DNA from: Forficula auricularia
Lineage: Eukaryota > Arthropoda > Insecta > Dermaptera > Forficulidae
Direction of reading: 5' to 3'
Assembly: GCA_024734495.1 (NCBI GenBank)
Contig: JALMQS010000073.1
Location: forward strand, 2,551,805-2,615,804
DNA: 64,000 nt
The position numbers and the translations under genes are program-made. Under the pieces are notes generated by a model. That model was not told the DNA's origin, made no database searches, and saw only the letters and a program-made list of their open reading frames with translations. Shown piece by piece: positions 4,146 through 63,042 of the stretch (position 1 is the first letter of the stretch; every line of letters starts with the position of its first letter).

Positions 4146-4291
4146 AAATATCGATTATGTCTGCCCAAAATAGATTATTAAATAAAAGTTAGCTTTTATT
4201 TCAATTTTTTCCCCCATAACTGGCACCTTAGCCAATTCATTAAAATAAAATAGAGCCACCAAACACGGTTCTTTTTAAATGTTATATTTAC

Positions 4292-10216: not shown

Positions 10217-11371
10217 ATGCCGTCAATCGCAGAACTGTTGGAAGGAGCAGAGCAACAACCATTGGCACACTCGTCGGCGTTAAACAACCTCGACAACCAA
10301 CCAGATCAGGCCCAAATGGAGACGATATCATGTGAGTTGCAGGGCATTTCACAGCCCAATATTACACAGAATTTTTCACAACCTAGTCTCCCGCAAACAC
10401 AAAGTGTTATGGCACAAATAACGGCATTGTTTAAGGATTTAAAAAATGATATAAAAGATATGAATGGATCAATAAACTGCGTAAAAATCGATTTAGAAAA
10501 GAAAATGGATAGCAATATGAATATTTCAACTATTAACATGGCGGGTTTAAAGACTGAAATGAAGGAAATGGGTAAAGACCTAAAAAATCAAATAGATAGG
10601 CTGGAAGGTAAGGTAGACGGTTATGTTCGGGACATGGAACAAAGGAGAGGGGAGGTTGACGAGATAAAACTTGAACAGGAAAACCTCGTAAAACTATCCT
10701 TTCAGTCCCATGCTGTAGCAATTGAGATAAAGGGTCAAAATTATAGTGTTCCCGAGGTCCCGGTCCATTTTCAAGAGTCTTTTGCGGTGGCCCTTTGTGA
10801 AACCAGGACAACGAGTCTATCCCAACAACTGCTGCCTCTGGAGGATGTGCCTGAGCCCGCATCCTCTCTAGAGAGGCGACAGTTACATGAACTCTTAAAT
10901 GAGTTCCAGGATATATTTTCCCCCGAGCCTGGGTGTAAGAAGGGCTACCAACATGTGATTGAACTAACTGATGTAGTTCCTTTCAAGGCCAAAACCTACC
11001 CGATTCCCATAACCCTTCTAACTGATCGCGGAACTCAATTCACCTCTAAGAAATTTCATGATTTCACTGGTGAAATGGACACTGAATTGCGATTTGTCGC
11101 CATCCGCAATCAACAGGCCAACCCGGCTGAGCGTACCATGAAAGAGTTAAACCGGCCTTTTCGTGCTTATGTGCACCATAACCATCCAAAGGTACTGTCA
11201 TCATTAATTGACAAAGTTTGTCAAAAGTTCTTTCTACTGTATGACGGCCCGTTCCGAGTGGCTGAAATCAGCCCCGGGGGTACGTATGTATTGGAGACCA
11301 CCCGTGGTAAAAAGCAGGGTGTCTACAATATCCGGTTATTAAAACGATTCTACCCTCGCCCAGAGCAGTAA
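10217..11371 (+). CDS. Chimeric Gag-RT-integrase ORF of the LTR element
   Basis: A 384-codon open frame. Residues 1-~170 look like the N-terminal part of a Gag, with a coiled-coil-like Lys/Glu/Asp-rich segment at ~95-165; no CCHC knuckle is present. Residues ~215-260 match the N-terminal edge of a Gypsy-type reverse transcriptase (LLNEFQDIFS, then HVIEL and the YPIP turn). The frame then jumps straight into an integrase core (LLTDRGTQFTSKKF, about residues 263-280; NPAER, about 302-306). It finishes with the integrase C-terminus (YDGPFRVAEI, NIRLLKRFYP). The RT active site, RNase H, zinc finger and first catalytic Asp are deleted, yet both junctions keep the reading frame. It is either a fortunate deletion product or a retained structural protein; enzymatic activity is not expected. 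Confidence 0.85.
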   Translation: MPSIAELLEGAEQQPLAHSSALNNLDNQPDQAQMETISCELQGISQPNITQNFSQPSLPQTQSVMAQITALFKDLKNDIKDMNGSINCVKIDLEKKMDSNMNISTINMAGLKTEMKEMGKDLKNQIDRLEGKVDGYVRDMEQRRGEVDEIKLEQENLVKLSFQSHAVAIEIKGQNYSVPEVPVHFQESFAVALCETRTTSLSQQLLPLEDVPEPASSLERRQLHELLNEFQDIFSPEPGCKKGYQHVIELTDVVPFKAKTYPIPITLLTDRGTQFTSKKFHDFTGEMDTELRFVAIRNQQANPAERTMKELNRPFRAYVHHNHPKVLSSLIDKVCQKFFLLYDGPFRVAEISPGGTYVLETTRGKKQGVYNIRLLKRFYPRPEQ

Positions 11372-15236: not shown

Positions 15237-15752
15237 TGTAATGAAATAAGCACCCCTTGGCCCTTATATTCATAATCGGCATATAGCTTGCCAGGTTTGT
15301 TTTATTGTTTCTTTTAGTAGGTGCAGTTGGCAGTCTGTCATTGCTCCCCGCCCCGTTGCTATCATGAGTTGCGCGTGGAAGGCTATCTCGACTGGCGGAG
15401 TCAGTCAGCCGGAGGCACGCTAGCGGACACAAACTCTATGACTCAGCTGATGCACGCTGTCCACCATTATTGTTCACTTTCTTTGTTAATTAAACTTATA
15501 TTAAATTCAGTCACTTTACACACACACAGTTTCAACTTGTTTCAATCGCTGTTTTCATTGTCTTCTTTACTTATATACATAATTATTCTATTAATACACT
15601 TTGTACAAATTGATTATTCTTCTTTACATAAATTAAAATCTTTTCTTTCAAAACTTCTATCTTTTATTCCAGAGTGCTAAATATACCATTACACAATAAA
15701 ATCCTAATTTGGGCCTCACCCAGATTTAACATAAGTAGGTTAAATCGCCACA
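15237..15752 (+). repeat. 3' LTR
   Basis: 516 bp, same ends and length as the 5' LTR with one visible substitution. It is preceded by the G-rich polypurine tract and followed by the TAAT duplication. Confidence 0.93.
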
Positions 15753-30039: not shown

Positions 30040-31332
30040 ATAAGGAAACCCAAAAACTCTTCGAAAACGTAATGAATAAGAAACTGGAAGAAAAAACACC
30101 CACAAATAATAAAGAAGAAGAAATCGAACAAGAATGGAATGATATGAAATCAAGCCTGACCGAAACTGCCAACGAAGTCCTTCAATCAAAGAAAACCGAA
30201 ATTAAAAAGCCATGGGTCAGACGAAATACTGCAACTGATTGACGAACGAAGAAAAGACGAAGAAGGGAAAGAAACATATAAAAAATTAAGATGGAAAGTT
30301 ATAAGAGAATGTAGAAAAGCAAAAGAAAAAATGATTCAAGAAAAATGTAAAGAAGTCAACGAAAATCTAGTATTGGGAAATGTGGATGTAGCCTATAGGG
30401 CAATAAAAAGAAATTTTCAAGAAGACAAGCCAAAAAGCAAGAACATAAGAAATGAAGGAGGCCACATTATTCTAAACGAAAACGAACAGGCAAATAGATG
30501 GAAGGAATACCTAGAAGAACTCTATGGAGAAGAAAAAACAATGAACCCAATAGAATAAGAAGAATCTGTGGACGAAAACGAATTAGGAGACCCCATACTC
30601 AGGTCAGAATTCGAGACAGCTTTGAAGGAACTAAAAAATAATAGAGCACCTGGAATAGACAATATACAAGCTGAAATCCTAAAGAACTCTGGAGAAAAGG
30701 CACGTGACAAACTTTTTGAACTAATTAGCAAAATCTATAAATTGGGAATCATCCCAAAAGATTTCCAAAAAACAAAATAGTCACACTTCCCAAAAAGACA
30801 GGCGCGGATAAATGTGAAAATTTCAGGACCATTAGCCTAAACTCACATGCCTCCAAAATCCTAACCAAAATAATCCAAAGAAGAATAGAACAAAGAATTG
30901 AAGAAAATCTGGGGGAAGACCAGTTCGGCTTTAGAAGAAACAGAGGCACCCGAGAAGCAATTCTCTCTCTTAGACTAATAATAGAAAGAGCTTTTATCAG
31001 GGAAGAATCTGTCTACATCTGTAAAATTACAAATGATGAAGCTCTTGGAAGAATCGGAGAAAGAAGAACCTTGTGGAAGAGTCTGAAGAAGAGAAGAGGT
31101 CAGATGATGGGGCACACACTGAGACATGGGGGACTGCTTAGGGATATCTTGGAGGAGGAGGTGGGAAAGAAAAGGGGAAGGGGAAGACCCAGATTAGAAT
31201 ATTTCAACCAAATAATTGGGGATATGGGATGCCAGACATTTAGAGAGGTCAAACAGCTGGCGGGGGACAGACGACAGTGGAGACGGATTGTTGCATCAAA
31301 CCAGTCTTAGGACTGTATACTCAATGATGATG
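30040..31332 (+). mobile_element. APE-type LINE, copy 2, with internal deletion
   Basis: Starts in the linker upstream of RT (RWKEYLEELYGEE, NNRAPGIDNIQAEILK), continues KCENFRTISLNSHASKIL and EDQFGFRRNRGTREAIL. At ~31,020 it jumps directly to the tail (ALGRIGERRTLWKSL, MMGHTLRHGGLLRDILE, RGRGRPR, then DRRQWRRIVASNQS). The catalytic FADD region is deleted. It shares the TCAATGATGATG end with copy 1 and has a 10-bp duplication. Several frameshifts; dead. Confidence 0.9.
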
Positions 31333-36214: not shown

Positions 36215-36262
36215 CTGTTTCTCCTGAAGATGGGTTAGTCACCCGAAATATATATATCGAGA
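36215..36262 (+). ncRNA. Hammerhead-ribozyme-like core
   Basis: CTGAAGA (36,224-36,230), one unpaired T, stem II GGGT/ACCC (36,232-36,235 with 36,241-36,244), then GAAA and a palindromic TATATATA followed by TC. Stem I is not clear. Confidence 0.45.
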
Positions 36263-37050: not shown

Positions 37051-37112
37051 GATATATATATATTTATATATATATATCGAAATTATATATCTGTATATAT
37101 ATATATAATTTA

Positions 37113-37170
37113 TTTTTTGAGACTATAGTTTCGAAGGCTTGGACCTCATCATCAGTCTTTTTAATTATAA
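37113..37170 (-). ncRNA. Hammerhead-ribozyme-like core (solo)
   Basis: Minus strand: CTGATGA (37,149-37,155), one unpaired T, stem II GAGG with CCTTC (one wobble or bulge), GAAA (37,129-37,132), then the palindrome ACTATAGT ending in TC. AGA before the core can pair with TCT after the predicted cleavage site. No inverted partner was found nearby. Confidence 0.5.
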
Positions 37171-40176: not shown

Positions 40177-43100
40177 GTGAGTGTCTTTTTTATCCCTGTT
40201 CTACATCTAATATTTAAATAAACAAAATTAAAATTTTATTATTTCAATGATTATAAATTTTCACTTAACAATATTCTACATCTCTAAGAGAGATTATCCT
40301 TTAAAATAATTTAAATTTTTTTTCCTTTGTTCACTATACTAACATACATATACTCTCTAGCATTCAAAAAGTTGAATTAATTATTTTCTGTAATTCCTGA
40401 AGATGGGTTGATATCCCAAAATATATATTGAAAAAATTTACCTCTTTTATTTTTTAATTTTTAACGTGAAACAAGTAGCCTAAAAAACCTAACTCATAAA
40501 ATTGATATCTCATAAAATATTTATTTATTTTTATCTTTATTAAAGATGTTTGTTTCACCTTGCACCAACACCACAATCTCTATTAATCATAAATATTACT
40601 TATAATTTATAATTAAAAATAAATTAAGGCATTTGTAGAAAGTCGAAAAAATAAAAATTGTTTGAAGTAATTTCAAAAACTAAAAAAAAATGACTTCAGT
40701 ATCTAAAAAATTTTCAAACACACTTCACCAAAATTAAATGCGAGGACCTTTATTTTTCGATACGCCCACCGGGAGTTGAAAGTCCCTCCCACAAATTTTC
40801 CCATACGTCTCTGGCTAAATAAAGTTATTCTGTGGCTTGTACTATATACGGAATTTGAATTATTTATCCATATTTGTGAAAGGTGAAATCAAAGTACGTT
40901 CAGTGGACATTTTTCATATTTTTTATTGATAGCCCCTTAGATCTACGCAACCTATTTGTCTCCTTTGGCGAGAATTCATATACCCTACAGTGAAACAAAT
41001 TATTATTAAGAATCTTGCGGATACAATAATATTTTAATTCTTTATCTCTAAGCTTTTGATCTTTTATTAAATAGATCATCTTCATGGCTATAGTATTGAA
41101 TTCACTTGATTTATTTTTTTGTGTTTAAAAAAGTCCGAATGAAATTTTTTTTTAGAAACTTTTTAAAATATAAAATACTAGGTAGATTTCACATAAATAT
41201 TTATGATATACCTACCTAGGATTTTATATTTTAAATTTTAAAAATCTTCTAAAAATTTTTCAAAAATTTTCTTTACTTTATTTAGAACGTTTGATTTCAA
41301 GATGCGAAAAATCAGAAAAAAATTGAATTATAGAGACCATTGTATATATTATAAAAAAAGTTCACTTCTGAGTAATAACCGTTGCTAATCGATTTTGAGA
41401 GAAAGAGGTGTTACTTAATAAATATTTCAAGCTTATTTTAATAAAAATCTTTGAAAAAAAAACTATATATACCTATATATTCCATTATCTTTTTTATCCA
41501 AGCCTCTTGATTTTACAGAGTTCGCCAATTAAATATTTAAATTTTAGAATGAATTTTACATATTTTATTTAAGATCTAATAACTTTTTATCAACTTTTTT
41601 TATATTTAAAACTTTCTTAAGTAATTTTTTTTTTTGAAATACCAAAGAAATATTATCATCACTTAATAATAATTCAATTTACTCTTCGTTTTCTTATTCC
41701 GAAAGTTTTCAAAGACACTCTTCATCCTGAATTCCTTTTAGTTACTCCGAAGACAATGAATTTATTTTTTAATTATTTATTTTAAGCATAGTATATATAT
41801 ATATCAAATATAAATATGTACGTAGGTATATATAATTTATTTGTTTGAGACTATAGTTTCGATTGTTTGGCATTCATCATCAGTCTTTTTAATTAGAAAT
41901 ATTTTATTTGTTAATTCTCATGTATTCAATTTCCCAATGGATATAGAAGAGTCGTTTTGTTGTTATAACAAGCCAGCCTTCACATAACAAACGATTGTGT
42001 GGTGGCTGGCTTGTTATAACAACAAAACAACTCTTCTATATCCATTGGGGCAATTGAATACACCAGAAATATAAATGTTTCTAATTAAAAAACTGATGAA
42101 GAAGATCAAACCTTCGAAACTATAGTCTCAAACAAATAAATTATATTTATATTTGGTATAAACATGTATAATATGTTTGCAGAGGACAAGCCCATTGATT
42201 TCTCTTTATGAATCAATAATTCTGCTACTCTCGGCAAAACAAAATCTTTCAAATTAAAAAAATATGTACTAAATTTCCGTTCATTAGTCTAGCTTTTAAA
42301 AAGCTTGCTACATTATGTTTAAATCGTTTCCGATTTTCTGCATTTTTCGATTTTAAATTTTAAAGCTTGAAATCTTTCCAGGTCTTCATTTTCGAAATAC
42401 AAATATTTTGGTACCAGAACGAATTTTCTACGACCTTTCGTTCTGGGATCATCGCGGGAAACGGAATTCACAAAGCAGACATTCTATTTTCTAATATCTA
42501 AAAAATGGGCAGTGAAATCGATTATTCATTAAAAGAAGCGAATTGGGAATTTATTTTATGAAAAAAGTTCCCAGCTAGAAGAATAATCCCTCCTCGATAT
42601 CTCTTAGAAGCTGCAAGGAAGTCCAAAACAAGTTCAGACAAGTTTTATCCGATTAGGAATATTTATTAAATTTTGTTATTCTAGAAAGGCCTAAACATTT
42701 TATTAGAAATCCGAAGGATACTCTTTAGCCATGAGAGAGAGGAAAGAAATAATTATTTGCTCTTAACTGAAATACAGGGCGGGGCATGAAGATCTACCAT
42801 ATTTTAAAGAGGCATAAAAAAATGAGAAAATTTAACTAGAAAAAAACTGAATATATTTTTGAAAAGAACTTTTTTAATGTGTTTTAAACATTATATCAGT
42901 CGAAAAAAAGGGGGGAGGGTCAAAAATGAAAATTCTATCCCTTTCGACCAAACTCAACCAAATTTTTATAGATCTTCTATGAAACCCCAGAAGGCTAGAA
43001 ATGCAAAAACTAACCACCCAAAATGGGGGGAGGATCAAAAATGAAAACTCTAGCCCTTTCGACCAAAAAATGTATACAAAATTTGGTTAGTTTTTTGCAT

Positions 43101-49100: not shown

Positions 49101-52100
49101 AGTATAAATCAAAATTGACTCATCCATCTTATAATTAAAGAAAGATTATTAAAACTTGAAGAAAAACCAATATAGGATCGGAGTCTAAATTATCTTTAAG
49201 CGTAGATTTGAAAGAAAATAAAAATTTAGGATTATGGATAAATGGAACCAGCCAAAGAATCCGAGCCTTATTAAGGATAAATGGATGAACAAATACGATG
49301 GTTAGAGTTCTATTTATATGATTCGGCCCCAAAGGAAAGGTGAACGTCGCATATCGTCGGCTTAGAGTGTAAACCTGCTAACTCTATTTTTTATCATATA
49401 TGACATATTAATATTTATCGAAAGAAAAAGACATGCAACATCGTTCCAAGTATAACTGCTACTTAAAATACGATCGTAAGTTGTAGAAAAAAAATGTGAA
49501 AAATAGTTTTTTTCATAATAACAATATTAAATTTTGTTTGTTTTTTCTGTGCCCTGTAAAATTTCCTTGTTGTGAGTTAGCAGGTTTACTCTCTAAGGCG
49601 ACGATATGTTTCATAATAAATGAGGCTTAAGTGCGAATCATTGACTTATAAAAACTTATAAAAAGAAATAAAATAAAAAATAAACACACATCTATTCGAT
49701 TATTTAATGATTTTTTATATTTCGGTAAGTAATAAATACAGTTGATTATTGTAAAACGCCACGGGTTTATTTTAATAAAATCAAAATGTTATTAGAAGGT
49801 TAATAAAAACTCTAATATAAATAGTTAAATTTAATTGATATGAAATAGAAAAATAAATTTTAATTCAAAAAAATATGTTCACTGCATACAACCTAACCAT
49901 AATTGATAATAACTTTTATAATTTATCTTGTTATTTACAATCGATAAACAAACAAGAGCTGAATGGGATTTTTTTAGGGCTTAAGGGAGTGTCATGTTTT
50001 TATTACTGAGGTGCGCACGCGGTGTTAAATTAAGCCATCGGTTTAGTTGGGATTAATCTAAAAAAGCTCTCGTTATTTTTTAGATAGCTCTCTCGAAATC
50101 TCATTAAAACAAGTCGCTTTTTAAAGCTTTTAAGGAAATGAATATTTTTTAAGATTTTCCTATAACGAAGGTAGAATATTAAAGTATAATATTTGAGAAT
50201 GTATTTCTAAGGCAAGGCTATATATATCCTGAGAGGGCGCAAAGAATTTTGAACGTTAGTCAGAAGCGATCTCGCGAATCTATTGAAGAATGGATATGAT
50301 GTTCAAAATAGCTCACTTAATGATTTAAAAAAATGTATAAAAGACGTAAAAATTAAAGTTTCATGGCAATATTGAAAGAAGAGAGCTTGATGTAGACAAA
50401 AGCATCTTATGTTAATAAAAGGCTTTTAGCTGCCAAATGACAGCCAGTCATATCAAACAAGTTGAACGCCTTAAATGGGTAAGCAAAAATAAAAAAGCCT
50501 TTTCAACAAAGCGAAATCATAAAATATTGCTAAATTCATTATTATTATTAGATTCGAACTATATTTATAATGTAGTTAGTTATAGTTTAGTATAAAAATT
50601 AAAAAAATTGAAACATCGTAAAACCCTCAAAACATTTGAAATGATAACTAGATAGTAGATATTATTATTATTTATTATTTGCTTTTTGTCTGTTTGATTG
50701 TAGCCGATTATTGTTTGATATATAGTAATAAGTATGGGGGAGTCGGGTTGCCCGAGCTGGATAAGCCCCTGGCCCCGCTTCATCGTCGTTCATGACGATG
50801 TTCAAGAGGGAGACCTGAGTTCGAGCCTGACTAGCATATAAAATTTCGACCGGCTAAAACTCGGTCCCCTCACTAACCCTATTAACACTTTACTGATGTG
50901 CTGTCTAAATGGTCTTTGTTCCCGGTGACAATAAACAATAAATAAATAAATAAATAAAATAAAATAATAAGTATGCCTGATTATACAATTGAACTCAGGT
51001 CCTAATGAAGAATTTAAAAGAGAAATTCGAAACATCGCTAATGGATAGTGTTTTATTTGTCTGCCTATGATTTTTTCCTTAAATTGATTACAGACTCAAA
51101 AAAAAATATTTGGTCACGTGATAATTATTTATCTCGAAAATCGTTATGATATAAGGCAAGGCCTGAGAGGGCGCGAAAAAAATTCTATTTAATTTTCAAT
51201 ATTATACATTCATCATCAATAATTCGCTTTACACGAAGCACGCGATTCGCGACTTTCTAAAATCCCTTCGCGGTCAAATTGGAGAAGTGCCGAACTACTT
51301 CATTCACCAGCATGTTTATACCCATGACTCCCTGCTTTCCGGATCTTACAATCTTTAAAACCCTTTAAGACCATGATGCACAGAAACTCTAGTCTCCACC
51401 CTTTCGCTTGGCCACTTACTCCTTTTCTTTTTGATAATGTAAGATTCTATAAAAATAACTAATTTTCTCTAAATAATCAAACGAAAAACTTTGACTGTTA
51501 TTGTGTTCATTCTTTACTTGTCTAATTTCAAAGTTTTATTAAAATTAAAAATAATTCTTCCTTAAACAGTTTTTTCTACTTTTGATTCTTTAGATATTCT
51601 CTCCTGAAATAAATAAATTTATATATACTAAGTATATATATATATAAATTTTTTCCACTTAATCCGAGAGAGAGGCATCTTTTTCCTTCCTCTCTGCTAG
51701 CTAGCCATGTGGTATCTACTTTTAATTTCAAAGTAGTTTTATTTCATAAGTAGCCTGTTAAAAATTCTAGATTGTTATTTTGACCCTCTCTACAATTAAG
51801 GTATAAATTTGACTATTAAATTATAATTAATTTTCTGGATTATCAAGAATTGCTTTATCAAGATATAATAATTCTTATATCTAAACCACGCTAATACTAA
51901 AAAAATTAACAAAATCCCTGACAATTCATGCAGAAATTTTCACAGCTGGCTAATTAAACTGCCTTATGATTTCCTAACTAATATAAAATTGGATTAATAA
52001 TTTAGCTAGTGAAATCTCAATTGAAGAAAAACATCTAAATAAAAGATTTCACTGTCGATGGTAACAGAATTGTTTTTATTTTAGGTTAAAAATAAAATAA

Positions 52101-55100
52101 AATGAGAGAGTCTTCTGTTTTTTAAATAAAATAATTTTTAATTATTTCTAGAGACTGTAGTTTCGAAGGCATTGCCTTCATCATCAGTCTATCACAAATA
52201 TTTCAGTTATATTCTAATCTCCCAAGAGGAAACATGAAGAAAAAGACATTATATATTTTTCAAAATTTTCAATGTATAAATCTTAATTTGTAACTAATTT
52301 GAAATATTTGTGATAGACTGATGATGAAGGCAATGCCTTCGAAACTATAGTCTCTAGAAATAATTAAAAATTATTTTATTTAAAAAACAGAAGACTCTCT
52401 CATTTTATTTTATTTTTAACCTAAAACATCTAAATAATCGAAAATATTTATTTTATTATTATTGGTGTAGAATATTGAGGTATTTCGGAAAAATAATATA
52501 ATGTATTATATTATAATGTATTATAATGTATATTTTTCCGAAATACCTCAATATTCTACACCAATAATAATACATACAATCGGAAACCTTGGCTACAAGA
52601 TCACTGTGGACCTTTCCACGAGTCTCCATTAACTTATTATATTTATTTTATTCGGATTTTAGTTTATATAGATTAAAATGCAATAATGAGGCTTAGCTAG
52701 AAATATTAGTAAGTAGTATAATTTAAATATGTATTTAGATTTTAATTTTTTGTAGATTAAATCTATTAATAATATTCTTTATTTATTTGCAGAATGGTTG
52801 GAAAATCAAGAGAAGCATCGGTTTGTATTTTCAATTTCAGTATTTTATTTACTTTCCAAAATATAATGGAAATAATAATAATTCAAATGATAATTATGTT
52901 TTTATATTCAAATTGTAATTAAGTAAAATGTTAATATATGAATAATGAATATATATATATAAATTATTCATTTATAAAATCCTTTTCATTATGAGCTTAT
53001 TCGACTTTTAGCTAAAATAATAATTAGGTTGGAAGATGATTAAAAATGCTTCATATCGGTAAAAAAATATAAAAATTTTATTGGCTAAATATAGGTAAAT
53101 TAAATATTTCCATAGCCTCTATCTATCACTTCTTCATCAGTAGAAGCTGTAACAATGAATTCTTTAATTAAATGTTTCCCTAGCATTACGTAAATAACAC
53201 ATAATCCATAACAAAATTGAGTTATTTATTTATGACCCTTGTGCTGTACAATTTAGGAAAGTATACTATACAGTGATGTACAATATACACATAATGCTAA
53301 TTAATTTACTTAATTGAAAAACTCATCAATATTGATTTTTTACAGCTTCCACTGATGAGCGAGTGGTATAATGATAATAAATTTTATATAATTTTTAACT
53401 GATATAAAACATTTTAATTTACATCTTTCAACCTAATAAATAATATTCAGTAATCACCAAGTCGTTAATAATTAGAATAATAAATATCAAGATCTAAATG
53501 TTTCCAAAAATAAATAAATATATAAAGTTTTAATTTTTAAAGAATAAATTTAAAATTCATTCTAATATCCATATTTTTATTAATTTGAGATCATTTGTTT
53601 CAAATGCCCTGGCTTAATACATAATGTAATATTAATATTTTGCCAGGTTAACTAGTGATATTTATTCTAGAATATTCAGCAAAAGATTCATTTTTCGAAA
53701 TTTTGTAATCTTTTATTTGCATTATTTGATATGGATCCTGTTGTCCAGCTCTGGTTAAACTTGTTTTGAAAGTTAAAATAGTTGTCAGATTGCGGTAGTT
53801 TTGCTCTTACTTTTTTATATGATTTCAAACATCTAATTAGATATCAAAATTATCTGGTAGTTTGGGAGCAATTGACAAATTTCTCCTTAGGAAGTCATTC
53901 TACAGTGTATCTCTGTAAACCTGGATTTTTATCTTTTTGCATTAATTTTTGTTTGTTTTTGTTTTAGAAAAAACAAATACTGTTTTCCCTGAACCCTGGG
54001 AATCCTCAACGTCAATCTGTTCGACTTCGTCAATGTCTCAAGAATCATTTGGCCAATGATGATGACCGGGATCATGTTGAACAATGGTGTACTCTTTTAG
54101 GTGATTTTAATATAAGAAAATACATTTTTATTCTTCTTTCAATTATTTATTAAAATATTATCAAGCGTTATTACTTAAATAGAAGTTTATTGAATCATTT
54201 GAATGAAACAATTATTTATTTTCTTAAAATATTTCATTCCTAGGCACGCTCGAAAAGCGAAACTTGCCGGTCGTAGGGATAAATCCGCTTAAACTATCAT
54301 TTCTTGCTTATTATGTAGAAATATCTAGAAACGTGGATAAAAATCATTTTCCAGGATTATTTTCTTCTGTCTATATGTCAGGATTACGATAACGTCGATA
54401 ACTTAAAAACAGAAATCGAGAAAGTTTGTTCTGGTGACAAAATTTCTGTATTTCTAAAACAAGAATAATCATTTTTTTCTTTTATCTTAAGAACTTTCAA
54501 TTGCAAAAAGAAAGATATCAGAACAAAATCAAATTGTCGAATGAAAACCTTTCGAAACGTTGCAGCTAATGAAATGAAATTTGACTCACATGTAAAATTT
54601 TTAAATCACCAAAATTTCTGAAAAGCGTATCGAGTTTTGAAAAACCTTCCACTGTCATTTTGTTCTCTATTTTTATATATTATAATAAGATTCGTTATCC
54701 AAATTTTTCATTTTGAAAAAGATAAAAAAATTTAATTTTAATTGAAAAGGTAGGAGTTACATGAAAGTTATATGGTTCATAGTCTACTTTATTTATTTAT
54801 TTTAATTAGTTATTCATTAGTCTTTCTTATTTGATAATTTTTTTACCTTATAAACCAAAATTAAAAATTAATTTTACTGTCCGGGAAATGGTCTCCCTAA
54901 ATAAAAACGAAATGGTTGCATAGATTTTAGGGGCTAAAAGAGATTTAATGTCCCATTATAAAATGCATTTCAAAACTTTCAAACCTAAATCTCTGAAATT
55001 TTATCATTGTTATCTAAAGTATGTAAATTCAATTAGATTCGTAGATCCCTTAAAAATTAAATAATTTAATTAGGAAATTAAACCTAATGTTAAAAAGGCA

Positions 55101-58100
55101 TTCATAACACGTACTTCAATAATATTAATTTCTACGATTCATATTCTTTCTTTAATTCTGTATAATTGAAATTTTTTCTTTATTTAAAATAGTGATTACG
55201 GTATTTTTAATATGAGAAACAATTGTATAATAAAAAGATTATATAATTATATAATTATTATATATGCCATTTTTTTTACAGAACTTCATTTTAAACGTTT
55301 TAGTCTTTAAAATTTCTAAGATTTATATATTAGATAATTAGTTTATTTTTTCACCGATACTAGCACAGGGTTGTAAACAGTAACTGTCTAAAAATCGGAC
55401 AATGAAACTTTAATTTTCTTAACCTTTACTTCTCATTTTGGGTAGTTGATAAATGCACCAATATTTTTACCGTGTCCTAAAGAATGACTCTGTAAAACTA
55501 AACCCAGACCAGGCAAAGGAAATAGCTTTAAGTTTTGCACCTCTTTCTCCAATTTTGAGTAATTGATTTTTGCTTATATTGTCTTGTCGCAAATGCGTAA
55601 TACGTATTCCTATGGATGGAAAGTGAGTTTTACACGTGTCTGGGCAAATTATGATTAATAATATAAATAAATAATACATATAAACATAATTTGCCCAGAC
55701 ACGTCCATTCATACATTAATTCCTGTGAATCAATTGTAATAGACTGATGAAGAGGGCAAAGACCTCGAAACTATAGTCTCGTTATAAATAAAATTTATTA
55801 ATCCAGCAGAAGACACTCTTTTATAGTCTCCTTCAATATATAAAAACTCTGCTACCCTCGACAAAAAAACTTTCAATTTAATTTAAAACATATTCCTATT
55901 TCTACACATTTTGAGAAAATCAGATATGTAGAAGTAGGTCGAGATTTGATTACTTGAATTTGCCAAGACAGACAAATAAATAAATAAAAAGGCAGAAAAA
56001 CGGACCTAAATAAAAAGCATTTAGAAAGATTTTGATGATTCTTTTATCATAAAATTTAATAGAATAAATATTAACATTATATTTGCAGAATGGCAGCTAT
56101 CATTATCATCTTCTTCCTCAACAATTGCCGAGTCGCTTCCTGGATCATCAGTTGTGGAAACGGTAGCTCTTGGGTGTCGGTACCATAGGGCTGGAATCGA
56201 ACCTTCACGAACAGACCCAATACATATTGCACAACGATTTAATCTCTCTGCAATGCAAACCGAATGGACCTTAGTTGAAGAATGGGCTCAAGCACAGGCA
56301 TGGGAGGAAATTGAAGCTTTACTTTTTAAAAAGGTACCTACCTAGGATTTCATCTTATTATATATAAAAAGAGAAGGTGATGTTTCATTCATCTATTAAC
56401 GCACACCCTAAACCTCTTGACCTAGAAAGATGAAATTTGGAATGTATATTCTTTCAACGATTTATGTGTATGCTAAGAAGGGATTTTTTGAAATTCGAAC
56501 CCTAAAGGGGGGAAAGAGCTCCAAAATGTGTTTTCAGAGTTTTTTTAAGATCTATTAAACCAGAAATAGATATCGATATGGGTTTAGTTTAGAAATACAA
56601 AAAACATATTTCAGTATTTTGAAGGAGACAATGAGTGTGTCTTCTGCTGGAATTATAAATTTTATTTATAACGAGACTTTAGTTAAAAATATATAAAAAT
56701 TCTGCTACTCTCGGCAAAAAACTTTCAATTTAATTTCAGTATTTTGCTCTATTTGTCCTCGAAAGAGAGATATAGTCATTTTGGGGTAAATTTTTAAAGT
56801 GATCTATCTCCTCGAGTTTTTAAGTTTTAGCATTCCTATTTAGTACATAGGTTTATTAATGCTAAATCTCGGGAGGGTTTTTTTATTTTTTTGAAATTTG
56901 ACCCCTGAACATTAAAAATCGGGAATTTTTGATTTTATGGTCTAAAACAAAAAAGGCTTCGTATCTTTCTAGCCCTTGGACCAAACTCATCCAAACATTG
57001 TATACATAGCCACTAGAAGTCTAGAAATGTAAAAACTAACCACCGAAAATGGGGGGGGGGAGTCAAAAAATAAAAATTCTTGCCCTTCGACCAAACTCAA
57101 CCAAATTTTGTATACATAATCTGTGGGCCTCTAGGGAGCTAGAAATGCAAAAACTGAGTGCGGAGATGTGGATCGGGGTTGGGTGAGGTGCAGGGGGCCC
57201 GGGGTGGATGTGGGGTGGAATGGGGTTAAGGTGCGGGGTGGGGGTTTGGAGATGGGGGAGGTGGAAAGGGTGCGTAGTGGGGTGCAGGGTAGGTGCGGTG
57301 GTGGAATAGGTGCGGGGTGCGGAGGGGGGGGTCAAAGGGGCGTATATTAATACAAAAGACGAGAAATAAATACATTAAATATCTAAAAAGTTAGGATAAA
57401 AACAATATTTTTCCGCTTTAACACATTAAAAAAAAATCAGAGCTTGAAAGTCTAGGGATTGGGGGGGGGGGCAAAGCCCCCCTGCATCCTCCCTGCGGAC
57501 GCCCTCGATAACATATATCATTGTAAGATTATAAAATCATTGTAAGTTTTTATTATCGGTCGCTAATTCAAAAATTGAAACTTTGAATTAAGTACAGCAA
57601 ATTGATGCTAGATGGCGCTAAGGGCAATCACTAATTTATAGGCTAGTCATTATTAAATAAATTTTATAAAATATAGTGAATTAATATGGTTGTCTTAAAA
57701 AAAATACATACTTTAATAAACAATTTAACCACCAATTCAATCTAATATTCAATTATTATAAAAAGTCATCTCATTAGGTACATATTTTAATTTTCAAATA
57801 TTTCTCGTGTAATTAAAATGAGAATCATTAAATATCAAATATATTTTACGAATTATTAATATCTTAATTAGGATAATGGGGTCTCCTCATAAAATAAAAA
57901 AAAAATTAATGAAAATAAACAAAAATTACTTTATAAATATTTCATTGAAAAAAATGGGAAATTTATCCCACTGACAAATTCAAAAATTTAAACTTTCAAA
58001 ATATAATAGACCATACATGGGCCTCAGCAGGAATTTTCTCAGGGCGGGGGCTGTAAAACCTCACTACATTTATTATATGTTCTAATTATGTATACCTATC

Positions 58101-61100
58101 TCGAGGGGTTAACCGCGATCTAATATAGTGTACACCTACTTCCACTTCCACTTTCATTTCCAACTAGAAGACAATAGATGAAGGGGCATTATCTAATGAA
58201 TTCCAAAATAATTCCACATAATTCCAAAGACGTGTACACCTAATTCCAATCTCGGTTCACCCCTCCACCATCTATATACCTATATACCTATATATATTTT
58301 TTACTTTACCATACAGGATATGGTCAAGTATTGTAATCGTGCATGAAAAAAGTGGTTTTTTTCCTTCTTTTTTTCGAAATATCTCAAAAACGGCTGAAAC
58401 TATTTCGATTAAAAAAATTGAGCGAAACCATGGCATTTCGCTCTACAAAAAAGCCCTAAGAAGTGAACATCGAAAAAATTATATTTTTTTCGAGATAATA
58501 ATTTTTTTGTCAAAATGTCTGTTTGTCTGTTAGTCTGTGCGTTACCAAATTTTGTGGACGAGCTAGCTCAAAAACTAGTTTGAATATCGAAACCAAATTT
58601 CACACGTAGTTTCCATTGAGATTAAGAGCTGATTAGATTTTGGTGCACATCGACCCAAAATTAAGGGGGGTGGAGGGGGGTTAAAAATTAAAAATCTAGG
58701 CCATTTGACCAAACTCAACCAAATTTTGTATACATAATTAGTGGGACCCTATAAGTCTAAAATAGAAAAACTAACCACCCTCCCCTACATGATTATAAAT
58801 AATTTTATTAAATATATGTGAGGTGACAGGTTGTATGGTAAAATCAAGTGGATGGCCACACCAGAACACGTCAGCTTATTTATTCAAAAAAAGAGAAATA
58901 AATACGTTGTAGATCTAGATAAAAAAATATTTTTCCACTTCAAATATTTCATAAAAATCAGAGCTAGAAAGCCAGGTGGGTCAAAGCCTCCCCCCCCCCA
59001 TCCCTTGAAAGAACTAAATTTATTGGTGCTCAGCTTTCCACAACTTGCCATTCTTTTTAACCCATTAACCAACAAAAATTATATTTGAATAAGATTGGAA
59101 TAATTTTTGGAAACGGACTGATAAGTGAAATTGAGTGACTGTTGATGAGGCAGTCCAAAAAAAGATAATTTATACTATCTTTTTATTCATAAACCGACGT
59201 TTCTGAGGCTCTTCCCTCCTTCTTCAGGGTCTGTAATCAATTAAAATTGCATTTGGCCATCATTACAAACAAGATCATCACAATTTTTTTTTTTATAAAT
59301 ACAATTAATATATAATTATATACACTTTTTTTAATCAAAGATATTCTACTCACTTTGAAAAGTCACTGAAGGAAATCCAATGCGACATTCCCCTCTGTCT
59401 CCTCTTTCAGTGGCAGTAACAATAATATATTTATATACTATTTTATTCTCAGCAGAATTATAATGTAGTAATGATTTGCAAATTTTGATATAAATATATA
59501 TAATTAGCCAAATTCCCTCCCAGATAAAACGTGCGCCTAGCGGTATTGCGCATAATTATTTGATTTATACAGTACAACAATGTGTATTATGCTTTAATTA
59601 CACTTATATATTTATATATATACAAACTTCTTATAAATTATTATTTTTTTTTTTTTCATAAATCCTAAAAAAGTTTGACAAGTCTTTAAATTACAAATTT
59701 ACAATTATTTACATATTATCTCTTTACATTATTATATTATAACTATACAAGCTTAGATCACCAATTATGCCGTCCCAACAAATACTCAGGTCTATTATGT
59801 CCGTTCTGTAGTTTACGGCGCGTGTCAAGAGATTTTTTTATAGCTATCATTTCCAGGTTTTTCTTTTAAAATAATTATTCTCTTGGAATAAATTGTTACA
59901 ATTGTTGAAGTTAATATTATGTTTTTTTCTGGGCATGAATTGCTAAAGCTGTATTATTTTTAATGGTTTTTGAGACCGAAAGTTCATGTTCTCATAATCT
60001 CTCACCAGTGCGCAGTTTTGTTTGACCGATAGTTTATGAATAAAAAGATAAAAGTATAAATTATCTTTTTTTGGACTGTCTCATCAATTAATATATAATT
60101 CTCATTTATATTTGAATCTAAAATTTGGTTATCTGAAATCTACTTTAAAATATTATCAATCCCATTTTAATTGATTACAGACCCTGAAGAAGGAGGGAAT
60201 AGCCTCCGAAACGTCGGCTTATGAATAAAAAGATAATATAAATTATCTTTTTTTGGACTGCCTCATCAATATCCACTCAATTATATTTGAACCTAAAATT
60301 TGGTTATCTGAATTTTACTAAAAAATATTAATGTATCAACAACTAGAAATTTTTTTATTTTACATTAAGGATTTTCATATTTTTTTTTTTTTTTTTTATT
60401 AAATAAACTGACCATTTATCCTAAAGATTCATTTGTTCAAGTGTTCAAGATATGCGATTTGAAAATATTAACTACCCTTCCTGCTCACATTATAGGTAGA
60501 CAAAACTGACTAACTTAATTCATCAATTCGTTTATACTTGTATTTTAAACAGACACTGATTTGTTTTTTCTATCATCTTCACCGAATACTAAAATCTTCA
60601 ATTTTTCAATACCCTCAGCTTTCTAAAAAAAGCTTCTACAACAAATTAACTCTTTAAAATTTCTAAAGTTTTACTGAACGTAAAAGAAAAAAACATTTAT
60701 ATTAGACTTAAAGATATTCCTTTTTGCATCATTACTATCATATAATAAATATAATACTTATGTTTTAAATAATAATTTTACTTAAAAATTAAAATGCTTT
60801 AAATATTTTCAACAAATCTTTTAATAATAAACTATTCATTGAATTCCCACTAATTGAATTGAATTTTTTATTTAGTCTTGGCTTGGTCGACGAAAACTTC
60901 AAACCTATCACACTCCAGCAAAACTCGTTAATTTGTTGCACAAATACAAGGCTCCTTCGTCTGTAATCGACATCTATTTGCAACAAATCGATTCATTGGA
61001 AGAACGAGGGACCTTAGCAAGAAGGCTTGGGTGTCATATGTCCCTTATCGATGTAAGTATTTAACATTAGATATATTTTAATTTTGTATTATCATTTTAT

Positions 61101-63042
61101 AAAATATATTTAAGCTTTTATAATTGTTTATAAGTCCATTTAAAAATGAATCCAAGAAAATCTAGTATAAAATATATTTTAAAATTTTGTTATATTATTA
61201 AAAAAAAATCTCTCCTCGAAGTATACCTAGTCTGCCCCCCCCCCCCCCCATTCTCCATTTCGGCCCAATACATAACCTTAGGCTTTGTTTTACCCTTATT
61301 TTAACGCGTTACAAAACAACATAACAGATTTTAGCTAATCTTTTATTATAGAATCAGAGTAAAATTATTAATATTTTCATGTATCGCTATTAAATGAAAC
61401 AAGCACAAATAAGATATAAACTTTTTGAAAATAGAAACATGTCATCAATAAAAACCATTTTATTGAAATAGATTTCTCTATAACTTTTATTTGTTTATTT
61501 ATTTATTTTTACAATTTACTGATGAAATGCTCTTATAACAATATATTTAGATCACATTATAAACAGAAAAGTCTACGTTACACTCCGAAACGTCGGTTTT
61601 ATGAATAAAAAGATAGTGTAAATTGTCTTCTTCTTTTTTTGAACTGCCTCATCGATATCCACTTAATATTTAACAAAGACAAAAATTTTATCACTGTTCA
61701 TCACAATGTCAAAGAATTGCAAAATCCGATTTGTATATTTGTTTATTCAGTCAATTACAGTGAAATATCCATACTTATTATTACCATGTAGGGAACTCTG
61801 AACAAGTTGGTAGGCCTAGTTCCATAACTAAAGTACACTTTACTGAGAATTATCGGACACTTAATTTTTTTCATTCAGAAGTTTCGAAAGAAAAGAAAGT
61901 TCAAAGAAACATCATCTTGAATCGAGTGACTGTAAACCAAGATGGACAGGGATATTATATTTATTTATTTATTTGCCATGTACGATGCTCTGGGACAGAT
62001 GCCTCAAAGTGCAGATACAAGTAATATTAGTACAGACGTGTTTTAATTAAGCCACAACCCTGAGTCAGATCTCTCTGATATTCCTTCCAAATTTGTAATT
62101 CATTAACCGCAAAAATGTATCCGTCACTCTCTTCAGGACAGATATAGTTAGATATAGATATGATTTTCGTAATAAGGATTTCATCTAAGAATACGAGTTG
62201 GTTCACTTATGACCTCGAGATATAGAATATTTAAAGAGGTAAAATATAATAATCTATAAAGATATTAATACTATCAACGTATTAAATTCTTAGTGAGAAA
62301 TTATATTTCGTCGGCTTAGAGTGTAAACCTGCTAACTCCATTTTTTATCATATATGACATATTAATACCATTCGAAAAAAAAGAGATACAGCATCGTCCA
62401 AGTAAAACTGCTACTTAAAATTAAGATCGTAAGGTGTAGAAAAAAATGTGAAAAATAGTTTCTTTGCATAACAACAATATGAAATTTTGTTTGTTTTTTC
62501 TCTGCCCTGTAAAATTTCCTTGTTGTGAGTTAGCAGGTCTCTCTCTAAGGTGACGATGTGTATATTTAAAACAAAAATTTTATTTAAATAATTGAAATTT
62601 ATCAATGATCAGTATATTATACTCAATGATGTACCATGTACCAGTTAATTAATTTGATTGAAATTCTAGAGTAATTTTGTAAACTAAACATCTTATTATG
62701 TTTCTTTGTTCAAAAAAATAAAACAATACTAAATATTACATAATGAGTAATTAATTTATGATTTTTAGGTTCTTGCTGCACAAAAAGATCGTCTTGCTCT
62801 TATTTCACTACAAGCCTCATTAGAACCAACTGAAGAGGCCCATCACTATGCGGAGAAAACGTTGAACACCCCCGTAATACAAATAATTATTTATAATCTA
62901 TCTCAATTATATAATATTAATTAACTAATATTTTACTTAAGAGTTATTTTAACAAAAATTTGAAATAACTTATTTATTATAGGAATCATCTAAATTTAGC
63001 TTTTTCATTTCAACTGATAAAATTTTGCTAAATTCTGTATAA
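39995..63042 (+). CDS. VIPAS39: VIPAS39 / SPE-39 (Vps16B), C-terminal part, spliced
   Basis: VIPAS39 partners the Sec1/Munc18 protein VPS33B in the CHEVI-type tethering complex on late endosomes, lysosomes and lysosome-related organelles. Exons: 39,995-40,176; 47,864-48,000; 52,793-52,820; 53,968-54,100; 56,089-56,333; 60,876-61,052; 62,769-62,873; probably 62,983-63,042. All introns are GT-AG and phases join without stops, giving ~355 residues. Family hallmarks as I remember them: SLEPFRSLNDK and GDGNAV in exon A, SWLG and LHKYKAP in exon F, and AAQKDRL in exon G. The family is ~490 residues, so ~140 N-terminal residues are missing; they are presumably upstream or outside the window. No competing family fits. 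Confidence 0.93.
40391..40440 (+). ncRNA. Degenerate hammerhead-like core
   Basis: CTGAAGA (40,397-40,403), T, then GGG/CCC stem. The GAAA box has become AAAA. It is related to 36,215-36,262 and probably dead. Confidence 0.35.
40915..41150 (+). repeat. Dispersed repeat, second copy (see 32,755)
   Basis: Same order of blocks as 32,755-32,975, with an extra ~20 bp (AAGAATCTTGCGGATACAAT). It lies in VIPAS39 intron 1. Confidence 0.75.
41845..41890 (-). ncRNA. Hammerhead-ribozyme-like core
   Basis: Minus strand CTGATGA (41,877-41,883), weak stem II, GAAA (41,857-41,860), palindrome ACTATAGT, then C. AGA/TCT can start stem I. Confidence 0.4.
42085..42140 (+). ncRNA. Hammerhead-ribozyme-like core
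   Basis: CTGATGA (42,093-42,099), one A, stem II GAAG/CTTC (42,101-42,104 with 42,112-42,115), GAAA (42,116-42,119), CTATAG, then TC. Stem I has lost the G seen in the mirror copy. Confidence 0.5.
42773..43342. mobile_element. Foldback MITE with TACAGGG termini
   Basis: Ends TACAGGGCGGGGCATGAAGA and its inverse (CCACCCTGTA), with TA targets. Both arms contain a unit of the 115-bp minisatellite family, so that dispersed family seems to be spread by this transposon. No transposase. Confidence 0.75.
43494..43600 (+). repeat. Diverged repeat, also inside LINE copy 1 insertion
   Basis: GTATTGTAATCGTC and GGTAAAGACTATGGAACCCA match, inverted, 18,570-18,700. A small further piece is at ~58,330. 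Confidence 0.6.
44748..45068 (+). mobile_element. Hammerhead-bearing foldback retroelement (copy 3)
   Basis: 321 bp flanked by AGTTATATGTTAT (44,735-44,747 and 45,069-45,081). A 30-nt unique extension (44,748-44,777) precedes the inverted repeat (44,778-~44,832 with 45,015-45,068). The right half holds one hammerhead-like core. Same plan as copies at 3,805, 27,864 and 52,043. No ORF; inserted in an older repeat in VIPAS39 intron 1. Confidence 0.82.
44965..45012 (+). ncRNA. Hammerhead-ribozyme-like core
   Basis: CTGATGA (44,972-44,978), one A, stem II GCCA/TGGC (44,980-44,983 with 44,992-44,995), GAAA (44,996-44,999), then CGTT. GC/GC can form the first pairs of stem I. The base at the predicted cleavage site is U rather than the favoured C. 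Confidence 0.5.
45441..45663 (+). mobile_element. tRNA-derived SINE, copy 1
   Basis: Starts GGGGAGTCGGGTAGCTCATT (A-box region), B-box GGTTCGATCC, body ending GGTGACATTAAATAAATAAA and an A-run. Flanked by CATTTTTAC (45,432-45,440 and 45,664-45,672). A second copy is at 50,737. Both are in sense orientation within VIPAS39 introns. Confidence 0.9.
45890..46220 (-). mobile_element. LINE 3' end, antisense
   Basis: The minus strand encodes FYNKIPEEIASLALNKFKSS then IKRTLLEKR, the closing motif of Jockey/CR1-type ORF2. It is followed by an AATAAACAAATAAA-type tail (45,900-46,000). Only the last ~60 codons remain. Confidence 0.7.
46221..47863. other. VIPAS39 intron 1, 3' part; nothing else recognised
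   Basis: AT-rich. A C-run followed by CA repeats (47,691-47,719) lies ~145 bp before exon B. No further feature supported. Confidence 0.5.
47864..48000 (+). CDS. VIPAS39: VIPAS39 exon B
   Basis: TTTCAG acceptor, frame VVMFLESTLKKSIWQRLLLE through RFRHQELSDLL, then GA|GTAAGT. It continues the helical repeat region of the family. Confidence 0.92.
48001..49350. other. VIPAS39 intron 2, 5' part
   Basis: 48,265-48,350 is GC-rich (GCGTGCCTTTGGCACGACC hairpin) in an AT-rich intron. It belongs to no family I recognise. The rest is unremarkable. Confidence 0.35.
49355..49603 (+). mobile_element. MITE with 30-bp terminal repeats, copy 1
   Basis: Begins CGTCGGCTTAGAGTGTAAAC and ends with its inverse through GAGTTAGCAGG. 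ATAT on both sides could be the duplication. The 249-bp element has no ORF. Copy 2 is at 62,309. Confidence 0.85.
50737..50965 (+). mobile_element. tRNA-derived SINE, copy 2
   Basis: GGGGAGTCGGGTTGCCCGAG start, B-box-like GAGTTCGAGCC, shared body (ACCGGCTAAAA, CTCACTAACCCTA, GTGCTGTCTAAATGG) and an AATAAATAAATAAA tail. Duplication AATAAGTATG at 50,727-50,736 and 50,966-50,975. Confidence 0.9.
51225..51385 (+). mobile_element. Degenerate Jockey-type LINE fragment
   Basis: NPFAVKLEKCRTTSFTSMFI matches the post-RT block of the 2326-2895 LINE. It has stops and is diverged. Sense orientation in intron 2. Confidence 0.6.
52143..52200 (-). ncRNA. Hammerhead-ribozyme-like motif
   Basis: Minus-strand mirror of 52,305-52,362. 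The core and GAAGGC/GCCTTC stem II are kept, but stem III reads CTACAG instead of the palindrome CTATAG. Confidence 0.55.
52305..52362 (+). ncRNA. Hammerhead-ribozyme-like motif, most complete
   Basis: CTGATGA (52,318-52,324), one unpaired T, a 6-bp stem II GAAGGC/GCCTTC (52,326-52,331 with 52,335-52,340), GAAA (52,341-52,344), stem III CTATAG, then TC with predicted cleavage after 52,352. Stem I pairs TAGA (52,314-52,317) with TCTA (52,353-52,356), then after an internal loop TATTT with AAATA. ACTATAGT is self-complementary, so stem III would be stable mainly in a dimer. The extra base before stem II departs from the textbook core. Confidence 0.6.
52455..52578. repeat. Palindromic foldback
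   Basis: ATTATTATTGGTGTAGAATA through TCGGAAAAATA and its inverse surround a TA-rich centre. It lies 30 bp from copy 4 but outside its duplication. No ORF. Confidence 0.8.
52793..52820 (+). CDS. VIPAS39: VIPAS39 exon C, 28-nt microexon
   Basis: TTTGCAG acceptor, A + ATGGTTGGAAAATCAAGAGA..., ending TCG|GTTTGT. It encodes MVGKSREAS, keeping frame between exon B (phase 2) and exon D (phase 0). Without it exon B would not join exon D in frame. Confidence 0.85.
53128..53366. repeat. Inverted pair with CTGATGA boxes, hammerhead core broken
   Basis: ACAGCTTC.ACTGATGA occurs on the minus strand (53,134-53,152) and on the plus strand (53,341-53,358). Neither copy has a convincing stem II and GAAA. 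Probably an old relative of the hammerhead foldbacks. Confidence 0.4.
53968..54100 (+). CDS. VIPAS39: VIPAS39 exon D
   Basis: GTTTTAG acceptor; KKQILFSLNPGNPQRQSVRL through DHVEQWCTLL, ending in G|GTGATT (phase 1). Confidence 0.9.
54525..54572 (+). ncRNA. Degenerate hammerhead-like remnant
   Basis: CTTTCGAAACGTTGCAGC has the GAAACGTT box after a short potential stem. CTGATGA is not intact. Recorded as a relic in intron 4. Confidence 0.25.
55610..55715. repeat. Short foldback next to hammerhead motif
   Basis: ACACGTGTCTGGGCAAATTA and its inverse flank a ~45-bp AT-rich loop, ending ~30 bp before the 55,732 hammerhead-like motif. Confidence 0.7.
55732..55790 (+). ncRNA. Hammerhead-ribozyme-like motif
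   Basis: CTGATGA (55,744-55,750), one A, stem II GAGG/CCTC (55,752-55,755 with 55,763-55,766), GAAA (55,767-55,770), palindromic CTATAG, then TC with predicted cleavage after 55,778. AG.A/TC plus ATA/TAT can form stem I with an internal loop. The downstream block CAGCAGAAGACACTC is shared with 52,390 and, inverted, with 56,640. Confidence 0.55.
56089..56333 (+). CDS. VIPAS39: VIPAS39 exon E
   Basis: The longest exon. EWQLSSSSSSTIAESLPG, then HRAGIEPSRTDPIHIAQRFN and EEWAQAQAWEEIEALLFKK, ending AAG|GTACCT at a codon boundary. A serine run marks a variable linker. The second half is the conserved region before the WLG motif. Confidence 0.93.
56615..56740 (-). repeat. Truncated hammerhead-element 3' part
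   Basis: Minus strand: AGTCTCGTTATAAATAAAAT, CCAGCAGAAGACACAC and TTGCCGAGAGTAGCAGAATT. It matches the sequence after the 55,732 motif and the TCTGCTACTCTCGGCAAAA repeat at 42,228. The ribozyme core itself is lost. Confidence 0.6.
56990..57155 (+). repeat. Minisatellite-family unit
   Basis: CCAAACTCAACCAAATTTTG and CTAGAAATGCAAAAACT match the 115-bp units at 34,145. The unit's G-run leads into the G-rich block. Confidence 0.7.
57155..57345 (+). repeat. G-rich, C-poor block (quadruplex potential)
   Basis: About 190 bp dominated by GGGGT, GGTG and GGGG runs on the plus strand inside an AT-rich intron. The proline-rich minus frame and glycine-rich plus frame here are low-complexity translations and not genes. 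It sits where the minisatellite unit normally has its short G-run, so it looks like a local expansion. It would be transcribed as G-rich intronic RNA. Confidence 0.75.
57360..57510 (+). repeat. Dispersed repeat, also at 58,880-59,005
   Basis: GAGAAATAAATAC, ATATTTTTCC.CTT and AAAAATCAGAGCT.GAAAG followed by a homopolymer G or C run occur in the same order at both places. Confidence 0.6.
58320..58790 (+). repeat. Dispersed repeat ending in a minisatellite-family unit
   Basis: AATATCTCAAAAACGGCTGA, GTCTGTTTGTCTGTTAGTCT and then CCAAACTCAACCAAATTTTG. This looks like a fuller copy of the interspersed element that carries the 115-bp unit. Confidence 0.5.
59190..59232 (-). ncRNA. Hammerhead-ribozyme-like core
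   Basis: Minus strand CTGAAGA, A, GGAGG with CCTC, GAAACGTCGG. One base next to GAAA has changed from C to A compared with 60,184. Confidence 0.45.
60178..60222 (+). ncRNA. Hammerhead-ribozyme-like core
   Basis: CTGAAGA (60,184-60,190), one A, a 5-bp stem II GGAGG/CCTCC (60,192-60,196 with 60,203-60,207), GAAA (60,208-60,211), the palindrome ACGT, then C with predicted cleavage after 60,215. CC/GG pairs begin stem I. Confidence 0.55.
60876..61052 (+). CDS. VIPAS39: VIPAS39 exon F
   Basis: TTTAG acceptor; SWLGRRKLQTYHTPAKLVNL, LHKYKAPSSVIDIYLQQIDS and ARRLGCHMSLID, ending at codon boundary before GTAAGT. Carries the most conserved family motif (WLG...LHK..AP). Confidence 0.95.
61575..61665 (+). 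repeat. Partial hammerhead-family unit
   Basis: CCGAAACGTCGGTTTTATGA followed by AATAAAAAGATAGTG and CTGCCTCATCGATATCCACT matches the 60,200-60,280 unit. The CTGAAGA box is missing. Confidence 0.6.
61955..62200 (-). mobile_element. Possible LINE 3' tail
   Basis: The minus strand ends in a CATGGCAAATAAATAAATAA tail preceded by sequence without a clear frame. Its composition and tail resemble the other LINE ends in the window. Assignment is weak. Confidence 0.35.
62309..62555 (+). mobile_element. MITE with 30-bp terminal repeats, copy 2
   Basis: Same ends and interior as 49,355-49,603 (ATATATGACATATTAATA is nearly shared; TTTTGTTTGTTTTTTCT and CCCTGTAAAATTTCC are shared), same orientation, 247 bp. 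Lies in VIPAS39 intron 6. Confidence 0.85.
62769..62873 (+). CDS. VIPAS39: VIPAS39 exon G
   Basis: TTTTTAG acceptor; VLAAQKDRLALISLQASLEP and HHYAEKTLNTP, ending CCC|GTAATA. If not spliced here, the frame would end 17 codons later in intron-like AT-rich sequence. Confidence 0.92.
62983..63042 (+). CDS. VIPAS39: VIPAS39 probable terminal exon
   Basis: A 109-bp intron with a TATTATAG acceptor leads to ESSKFSFFISTDKILLNSV and a TAA stop. The family normally ends within ~10-15 residues of this point with a short Ser-rich, basic tail, which the start of this exon resembles. Read-through of exon G is the alternative. Confidence 0.5.
   Translation, partial: ESSKFSFFISTDKILLNSV

Follow-up and report, generated by a model that had tools for sequence, protein, structure and literature searches.

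Anatomy of the insertion and its relatives

The stretch analysed here, referred to below as the window and numbered from its first base, is a 64,000-nucleotide segment of the Forficula auricularia genome (contig JALMQS010000073.1, positions 2,551,805 to 2,615,804 of the forward strand). At 52043-52423 it carries an insertion of 381 bp, devoid of an open reading frame (ORF) of its own and bounded by a perfect 14-bp target-site duplication, AAACATCTAAATAA, at 52029-52042 and 52424-52437. From left to right the insertion consists of a tail (52043-52081), a minus-strand arm (52082-52205), a 94-nt spacer (52206-52299) and a plus-strand arm (52300-52423). The arms, two pseudo-long terminal repeat (pLTR) copies of 124 nt in inverted orientation, are identical at 123 of 124 positions (126 of 127 if AAAA, common to arm and duplication, is counted in), and the sole mismatch falls inside stem III of the hammerhead-like motif that each of them contains. 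This motif lies at 52149-52187 on the minus strand of the left arm, with the not fully palindromic stem III ACTACAGT, and at 52318-52356 on the plus strand of the right arm, with stem III ACTATAGT and predicted cleavage at 52352/52353. The spacer perhaps stems from pLTR sequence lying upstream in one of the two copies or in both. Scored as a 15-nt match that includes one shared A, the duplication was equalled by none of 300 random position pairs, and both it and the inverted arms were as described in the original prediction, which had been made from the sequence alone.

The tail is a 3' extension of the left pLTR copy, while the right copy has none. Its length was measured at 39 nt, as predicted, with a possible range of 36-39 nt since the outer end of the arm and the duplication have AAA in common. 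The prediction had also called this extension unique, which did not hold, because its core motif is present four times in the window. The tail contains TCTGTTACCATCGACA at 52053-52068, a pattern common to three other sites, and a search with the tail motif TCTGYTACNMTCGRCA, allowing two mismatches, returned four matches, all of them exact, against 0.17 expected. These lie in the focal tail, downstream of the related copies with cores at 55744 and 42093, and at 56701, the last being an independent match since the pattern had been derived from the other three sites. A 10-nt match, AGTGAAATCT, between the left flank (52008-52017) and the tail end read in the opposite orientation was set aside because 21 of 1000 random windows equal it and the second insertion described below lacks it. 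A further inverted repeat, with perfect 42-nt arms 35 nt apart and no hammerhead core, adjoins the element at 52454-52572, 16 nt to the right of the duplication.

The match at 56701 pointed to a second insertion of 111 bp (56622-56732), which has no ORF, no hammerhead core and a tail at one end only. It is flanked by a perfect 14-bp duplication of ATTTCAGTATTTTG (56608-56621 and 56733-56746), equalled by 2 of 300 random pairs, and is made up of a minus-strand pLTR part (56622-56684) and a plus-strand tail (56688-56732). The left part corresponds, in reverse complement, to about 55769-55833 of a related copy and the right part matches about 55835-55880, so that the whole corresponds to one nearly contiguous template stretch of which the upstream part has been inverted, with the two parts barely overlapping. 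As worked out by hand, orientation switches at an inner site some 10-14 nt before TCTGYTAC, and the focal right arm ends at the equivalent site, again about 10-14 nt ahead of TCTGYTAC. Both insertions have a duplication of 14 bp, a one-ended tail and an inner end at about the same site.

Other members of the family were also found. A search with the arms (blastn, E<1e-5) returned four stretches beyond the arms themselves, 55726-55799, 37110-37158, 41837-41904 and 42092-42154, all of which retain the core. The first belongs to a single-orientation plus-strand copy at 55614-55887 with hammerhead-like motif (core 55744), pLTR, tail and a possible 12-bp duplication (11 of 12 positions matching; weak, since 25 of 300 random pairs equal it). 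The second is a partial minus-strand copy with its core at 37155. The remaining two form a more diverged head-to-head pair at 41827-42257, with cores at 41883 (minus) and 42093 (plus) and a tail motif at 42221 (plus); it has inverted parts at 41827-41909 and 42067-42149 and a 55-nt inner palindrome, and its duplication is weak (20 of 300 random pairs equal it).

Inverted pairs of other motif families lie at 3834-4022/4025-4213, 59129-59253/60158-60282 and 44776-44839/45006-45072. The pair at 3834-4213 is a nearly gapless palindrome with 189-nt arms (93% identity, 2 nt between them) and cores at 3939 (minus) and 4108 (plus). At 59129-60282, inverted arms of 125 nt with hammerhead-like cores at 59227 (minus) and 60184 (plus) are accompanied by a partial direct copy at 60034-60155, a combined inverted and direct layout resembling the arrangement described for Penelope, and another partial copy lies at 61583-61667. 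A hammerhead-like motif with the stem III ATATATATAT was found at 36224-36262, directly after a stretch that appears by eye to be tandemly repeated, and a diverged second copy of it, with GAAA broken, at 40381-40428.

The hammerhead-like core and its conservation

Each arm contains, in order, CTGATGA, an extra T, GAAGGC-AAT-GCCTTC, GAAA, stem III, TC and stem I. Stem II is of 6 bp with an AAT loop in both arms. Stem III is of 2 bp with a 4-nt loop (C-TATA-G in the 3' arm, C-TACA-G in the 5' arm), and stem I comprises four TCTA/TAGA pairs, an internal loop and five further pairs, the loop-interrupted pairing that had been foreseen. CUGANGA, GAAA, A15.1-U16.1 and H17 are thus present around three stems, with one extra nucleotide before stem II; insertions of 1-2 nt at this position are described as within known hammerhead limits (PMC10085705). 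The core layout given in the original prediction agrees with this, but the extra T between CTGATGA and stem II had gone unmentioned, and the short palindromic stem III applies to the 3' arm alone, where ACTATAGT is a full palindrome. An ATG at stem II is formed by A9-T-G (52324-52326); counted from its A, the predicted cut falls after the 29th base.

The motif is in marked excess in the window. A strict scan requiring the core, at least 4 pairs in stem II, at least 2 in stem III and at least 4 in stem I returned three motifs, two of them the focal arms, as against three in total over 400 dinucleotide shuffles. The plain pattern CTGANGA-N8-26-GAAAC, which requires no stem, matched 11 times, whereas 300 shuffles gave 0.31 matches on average and never more than 2. 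Pairing in stem II was counted directly on these 11 matches instead of by a covariance model because MAFFT misaligned the mixed families. Given one extra nucleotide ahead of stem II, 41 of the 44 cells (first four pairs, 11 copies) were paired, with compensatory change, and seven alternative offsets gave 19 to 36. When the 3' halves were reshuffled among the copies, 41 paired cells were reached in 1 of 20,000 trials, a figure that overstates the evidence because several of the copies belong together as arms of a single pair and cannot count as independent; with six chosen representatives all 24 cells were paired, which 4 of 720 permutations reach. The motif at 36224, outside this set on account of its GAAAT, fits the stem II pairing too.

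Conservation was concentrated in the core. In an alignment of six in-window copies of the focal family, two of them the focal arms, mean pairwise identity was 1.0 in CTGATGA, GAAA and TC and 0.94 in CTATAG, as against 0.67 in the stem II region, 0.75 in the stem I flanks, 0.50 downstream and 0.36 upstream. Loss of core conservation relative to surrounding bases had been named beforehand as an outcome that could refute the predicted ribozyme-bearing element, and the core proved invariant while the flanks had diverged. Self-complementary stem III strings differ between families, ACTATAGT being found in five of the six focal-family copies and ACGT and ATATATATAT in others. The absence of G at H17 was dropped as evidence because the script accepted only non-G at this position. 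Motif and covariation together are consistent with a putative minimal type I hammerhead in the pLTR.

Matches to the motif as DNA patterns in public collections (0, 2 and 0 in viral_contigs, 5 in genome_contigs) were regarded as chance, because the 40-base flanks of these seven, read by eye, never resembled the element; five of them are in records of G+C 0.60-0.71. Two microRNA covariance matches on the element, far under gathering scores (54.7 of 200 and 46.8 of 85), were rejected as effects of its hairpin.

Origin, mode of insertion and possible ribozyme activity

We consider it likely that the feature descends from an endonuclease-containing Penelope-like element (PLE) as a derivative lacking ORFs, and that it was inserted by reverse transcription primed from both cut target strands. 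The anatomy is that of two pLTR pieces set head to head, each with a minimal hammerhead motif and one of them extended by the 39-nt tail. PLEs have pLTRs in direct or inverted orientation, and inverted ones were found in the focal arms, one further family pair and three pairs of other motif families; an element-derived tail of 30-40 bp on the 3' end of one pLTR is represented by the 39-nt tail, and a short target-site duplication by 14 bp in two copies. The predicted Penelope-like affinity is thus supported by inverted pLTR anatomy, one-sided tail, duplications and hammerhead-like core, the non-autonomous character by the lack of an ORF, and insertion by target-primed copying by an anatomy that fits it.

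In the mechanism that we envisage, an RNA with hammerhead, 3' part of the pLTR and tail would be bound by the reverse transcriptase (RT)/endonuclease of an autonomous relative. Both strands of an A+T-rich site would be cut by the enzyme with a stagger of 14 nt, the length being taken from that of the duplication. Each target 3' end would then start reverse transcription within the RNA, at the inner start site (the pLTR end) in one case and about 40-45 nt further (the tail end) in the other. The inverted arms and the 14-bp duplication would result when the two cDNAs met in the middle. We infer the priming from both target strands, one per start site, from the present analysis; the published explanation of inverted PLE copies is another one, discussed below. 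It is quite possible, and put forward here tentatively, that head-to-head Penelope insertions are in general twin-primed, with one enzyme dimer cutting both strands and, of two fixed RNA sites, each strand priming at a separate one. A tail on exactly one end would then be expected of every head-to-head insertion, and copies such as 56622-56732 would record both priming events on one RNA. No such proposal for inverted Penelope copies was found in a literature search by titles and opening abstracts.

Several observations weigh against a Penelope-like, ribozyme-bearing element inserted in this way. Similarity of the tail by local alignment is clear in one of four related copies (downstream of 55744, where 4 of 500 shuffles do as well), weak in one (42093; 92 of 500) and absent in two (41883 and 37155; 429 and 354). 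Duplications are convincing in two insertions only, those of the remaining copies tested being weak or not above chance (118 to 220 of 300), and the inner end is blurred by a few bases common to each duplication. A regex search of the window for PLE-type RT or GIY-YIG motifs gave no match of PLE type, with no GIY-YIG and four loose x-DD matches, one of them like that of a long interspersed nuclear element, and no autonomous partner was seen by this means. In the left arm the frame opened by the stem II ATG is closed after 19 codons, in the right arm after 8. The Rfam check named in the original prediction yielded no match to any hammerhead family, whether on the whole window at gathering scores, on the 381-bp element at E<=1, or on the right-arm motif and three other motif copies at E<=10. 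The lowest-energy folds bury the core in all six focal-family copies, an open core costing 1.9-8.4 kcal/mol, and the core is likewise buried when the 52318 copy is folded as a two-strand dimer (-40.6 vs -31.4 kcal/mol open, a loss of 9.2). In the anole PLE, RNA-seq reads ending at the hammerhead cut are reported as not found, and mutation of the hammerhead as without effect on insertion in vitro (PMC11167929).

Folding bears on the claim that the element processes its own RNA. A transcript through the whole element is predicted to form one long hairpin on either strand (-205.7 and -205.6 kcal/mol), and self-cleavage of such read-through RNA is for this reason doubtful. The isolated right-arm motif has a best fold of -15.3 kcal/mol, which buries the core, as against -4.7 for a hand-written hammerhead fold; a longer piece gave -15.8 as against -11.2 with the core merely held open. 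In six motif copies of other families an open core costs 0-3.6 kcal/mol. With motifs on opposite strands, a hairpin transcript and an isolated motif that prefers a core-burying fold, the claim of self-processing was not upheld for the focal copy. More likely, the ribozyme, if active, would act on tandem parent transcripts, perhaps as a dimer with palindromic stem III, rather than on the focal hairpin RNA; the self-complementary ACTATAGT in five of six family copies is as expected of those PLE motifs that are said to act as dimers (PMC7761336). Seven local alignments also gave the starts of partial copies. Those at 45006 and 60219 lie 3-4 nt past the predicted cut, and those at 55769, 60204 and 36247 lie 10-12 nt short of it; of the remaining two, one is some 50 nt short of the cut and the other is at the inner start site. 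The clustering of these starts near the cut may reflect cleavage by the ribozyme or, alternatively, halting of the RT at stem II.

The inverted arms could be of Penelope-like origin and yet result from template jumping or snap-back self-priming on a single strand, which we regard as rather unlikely. Self-priming on antisense RNA is the published account of inverted PLE repeats with palindromic junctions (PMC3846280), and it would suit the almost gapless palindrome at 3834-4213 and the inner palindrome of the pair at 41827-42149. It sits poorly with the focal copy, which has a 94-nt spacer and arms ending at different 3' sites, and with 56622-56732, whose inverted-upstream layout with hardly overlapping parts is as expected if two primers used one RNA. 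Nor do we favour, at a similar level of doubt, a decayed or never-active hammerhead look-alike, such as a protein-bound hairpin without self-cleavage. The four motif copies without Rfam support, the core buried in the lowest-energy folds of the focal family, and the anole PLE, whose hammerhead cuts only if protein is present and is dispensable for insertion in vitro (PMC11167929), would agree with it. Core letters that stay invariant in the family while stem II covaries, and the recurrence of different self-complementary stem III strings, argue against it.

Membership among the metazoan non-LTR retrozymes, raised in the original prediction and implying movement via small circular RNA, is improbable. 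The element resembles them in being short, non-coding and A+T-rich with a type I-like motif, and retrozymes co-occur with PLEs (PMC7229834). They are described, however, as tandem units with canonical motifs (PMC7229834), whereas no tandem repeat of the unit was found at the locus (51900-52700), the arrangement is inverted, the one-sided tail fits Penelope insertions and stem III is minimal as in PLEs. An ordinary foldback or miniature inverted-repeat DNA transposon, or a microRNA-like hairpin locus, is more improbable still. Inverted repeats, a target duplication and the sub-gathering microRNA matches would suit such a locus, but not the one-sided 39-nt tail with its motif recurring in relatives, the 14-bp duplications, the single-orientation relative with a tail at 55744 or the copy at 56.6 kb, which is split at the boundary of its tail.

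Elsewhere in the window, two 119-codon stop-to-stop frames with identical translation (9613-9969 and 15321-15677), about 5.7 kb apart, suggest a recent duplication or paired long repeats. No Pfam match was found for the ORF at 10217-11371. An RT fragment at 30741-31307 has 101 related proteins, nine of them with an organism name and eight of these from insects: the named relatives are Kerria, Macrosiphum, Cyamophila, Cinara, Diaphorina and Sipha, all sap-sucking insects, and one labelled Pantoea.

Comparison with known Penelope-like elements

Elements of this kind are already known, and the value of the present copies may lie in how they show such elements to insert, the later steps of Penelope insertion being yet to be validated according to the anole study (PMC11167929). 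In short insertions that retain both ends, both start sites and the duplication, the whole reaction may be preserved within a single sequence, and priming from both strands could be tested by end counts in any genome rich in such copies. A minimal hammerhead core is retained here in elements encoding nothing.

The closest parallel in anatomy is Penelope of Adineta vaga, in which pLTRs are described as lying inverted, head to head, one of them optionally with a 31-bp tail on its 3' end, and duplications as measuring 8-10 bp; in a few cases unrelated sequence lies between solo pLTRs, with duplications flanking (PMC3846280). Those copies mostly keep an ORF or its remains, whereas the present insertions are of 381 and 111 bp, without an ORF and with 14-bp duplications; the word 'hammerhead' does not occur in that paper (PMC3846280). 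Poseidon PAc of Anolis carolinensis offers the parallel in mechanism. Both target strands are reported to be cleaved and extended, two RT start sites delimit the tail, the start codon of the ORF lies at hammerhead stem II and is followed 26 bp later by the cut, and targets are A+T-rich, all of which resembles what is seen in or proposed for the focal element (PMC11167929). Unlike the latter, Poseidon PAc is autonomous, tandem and coding, and the account of it, in its available parts, proposes no route to inverted insertions (PMC11167929). In its diminished stem III and its location in a pLTR, the focal motif resembles the small PLE hammerhead variants that cleave as dimers (Lunse 2017 and Cervera 2014, as cited in PMC7761336 and PMC6155905).

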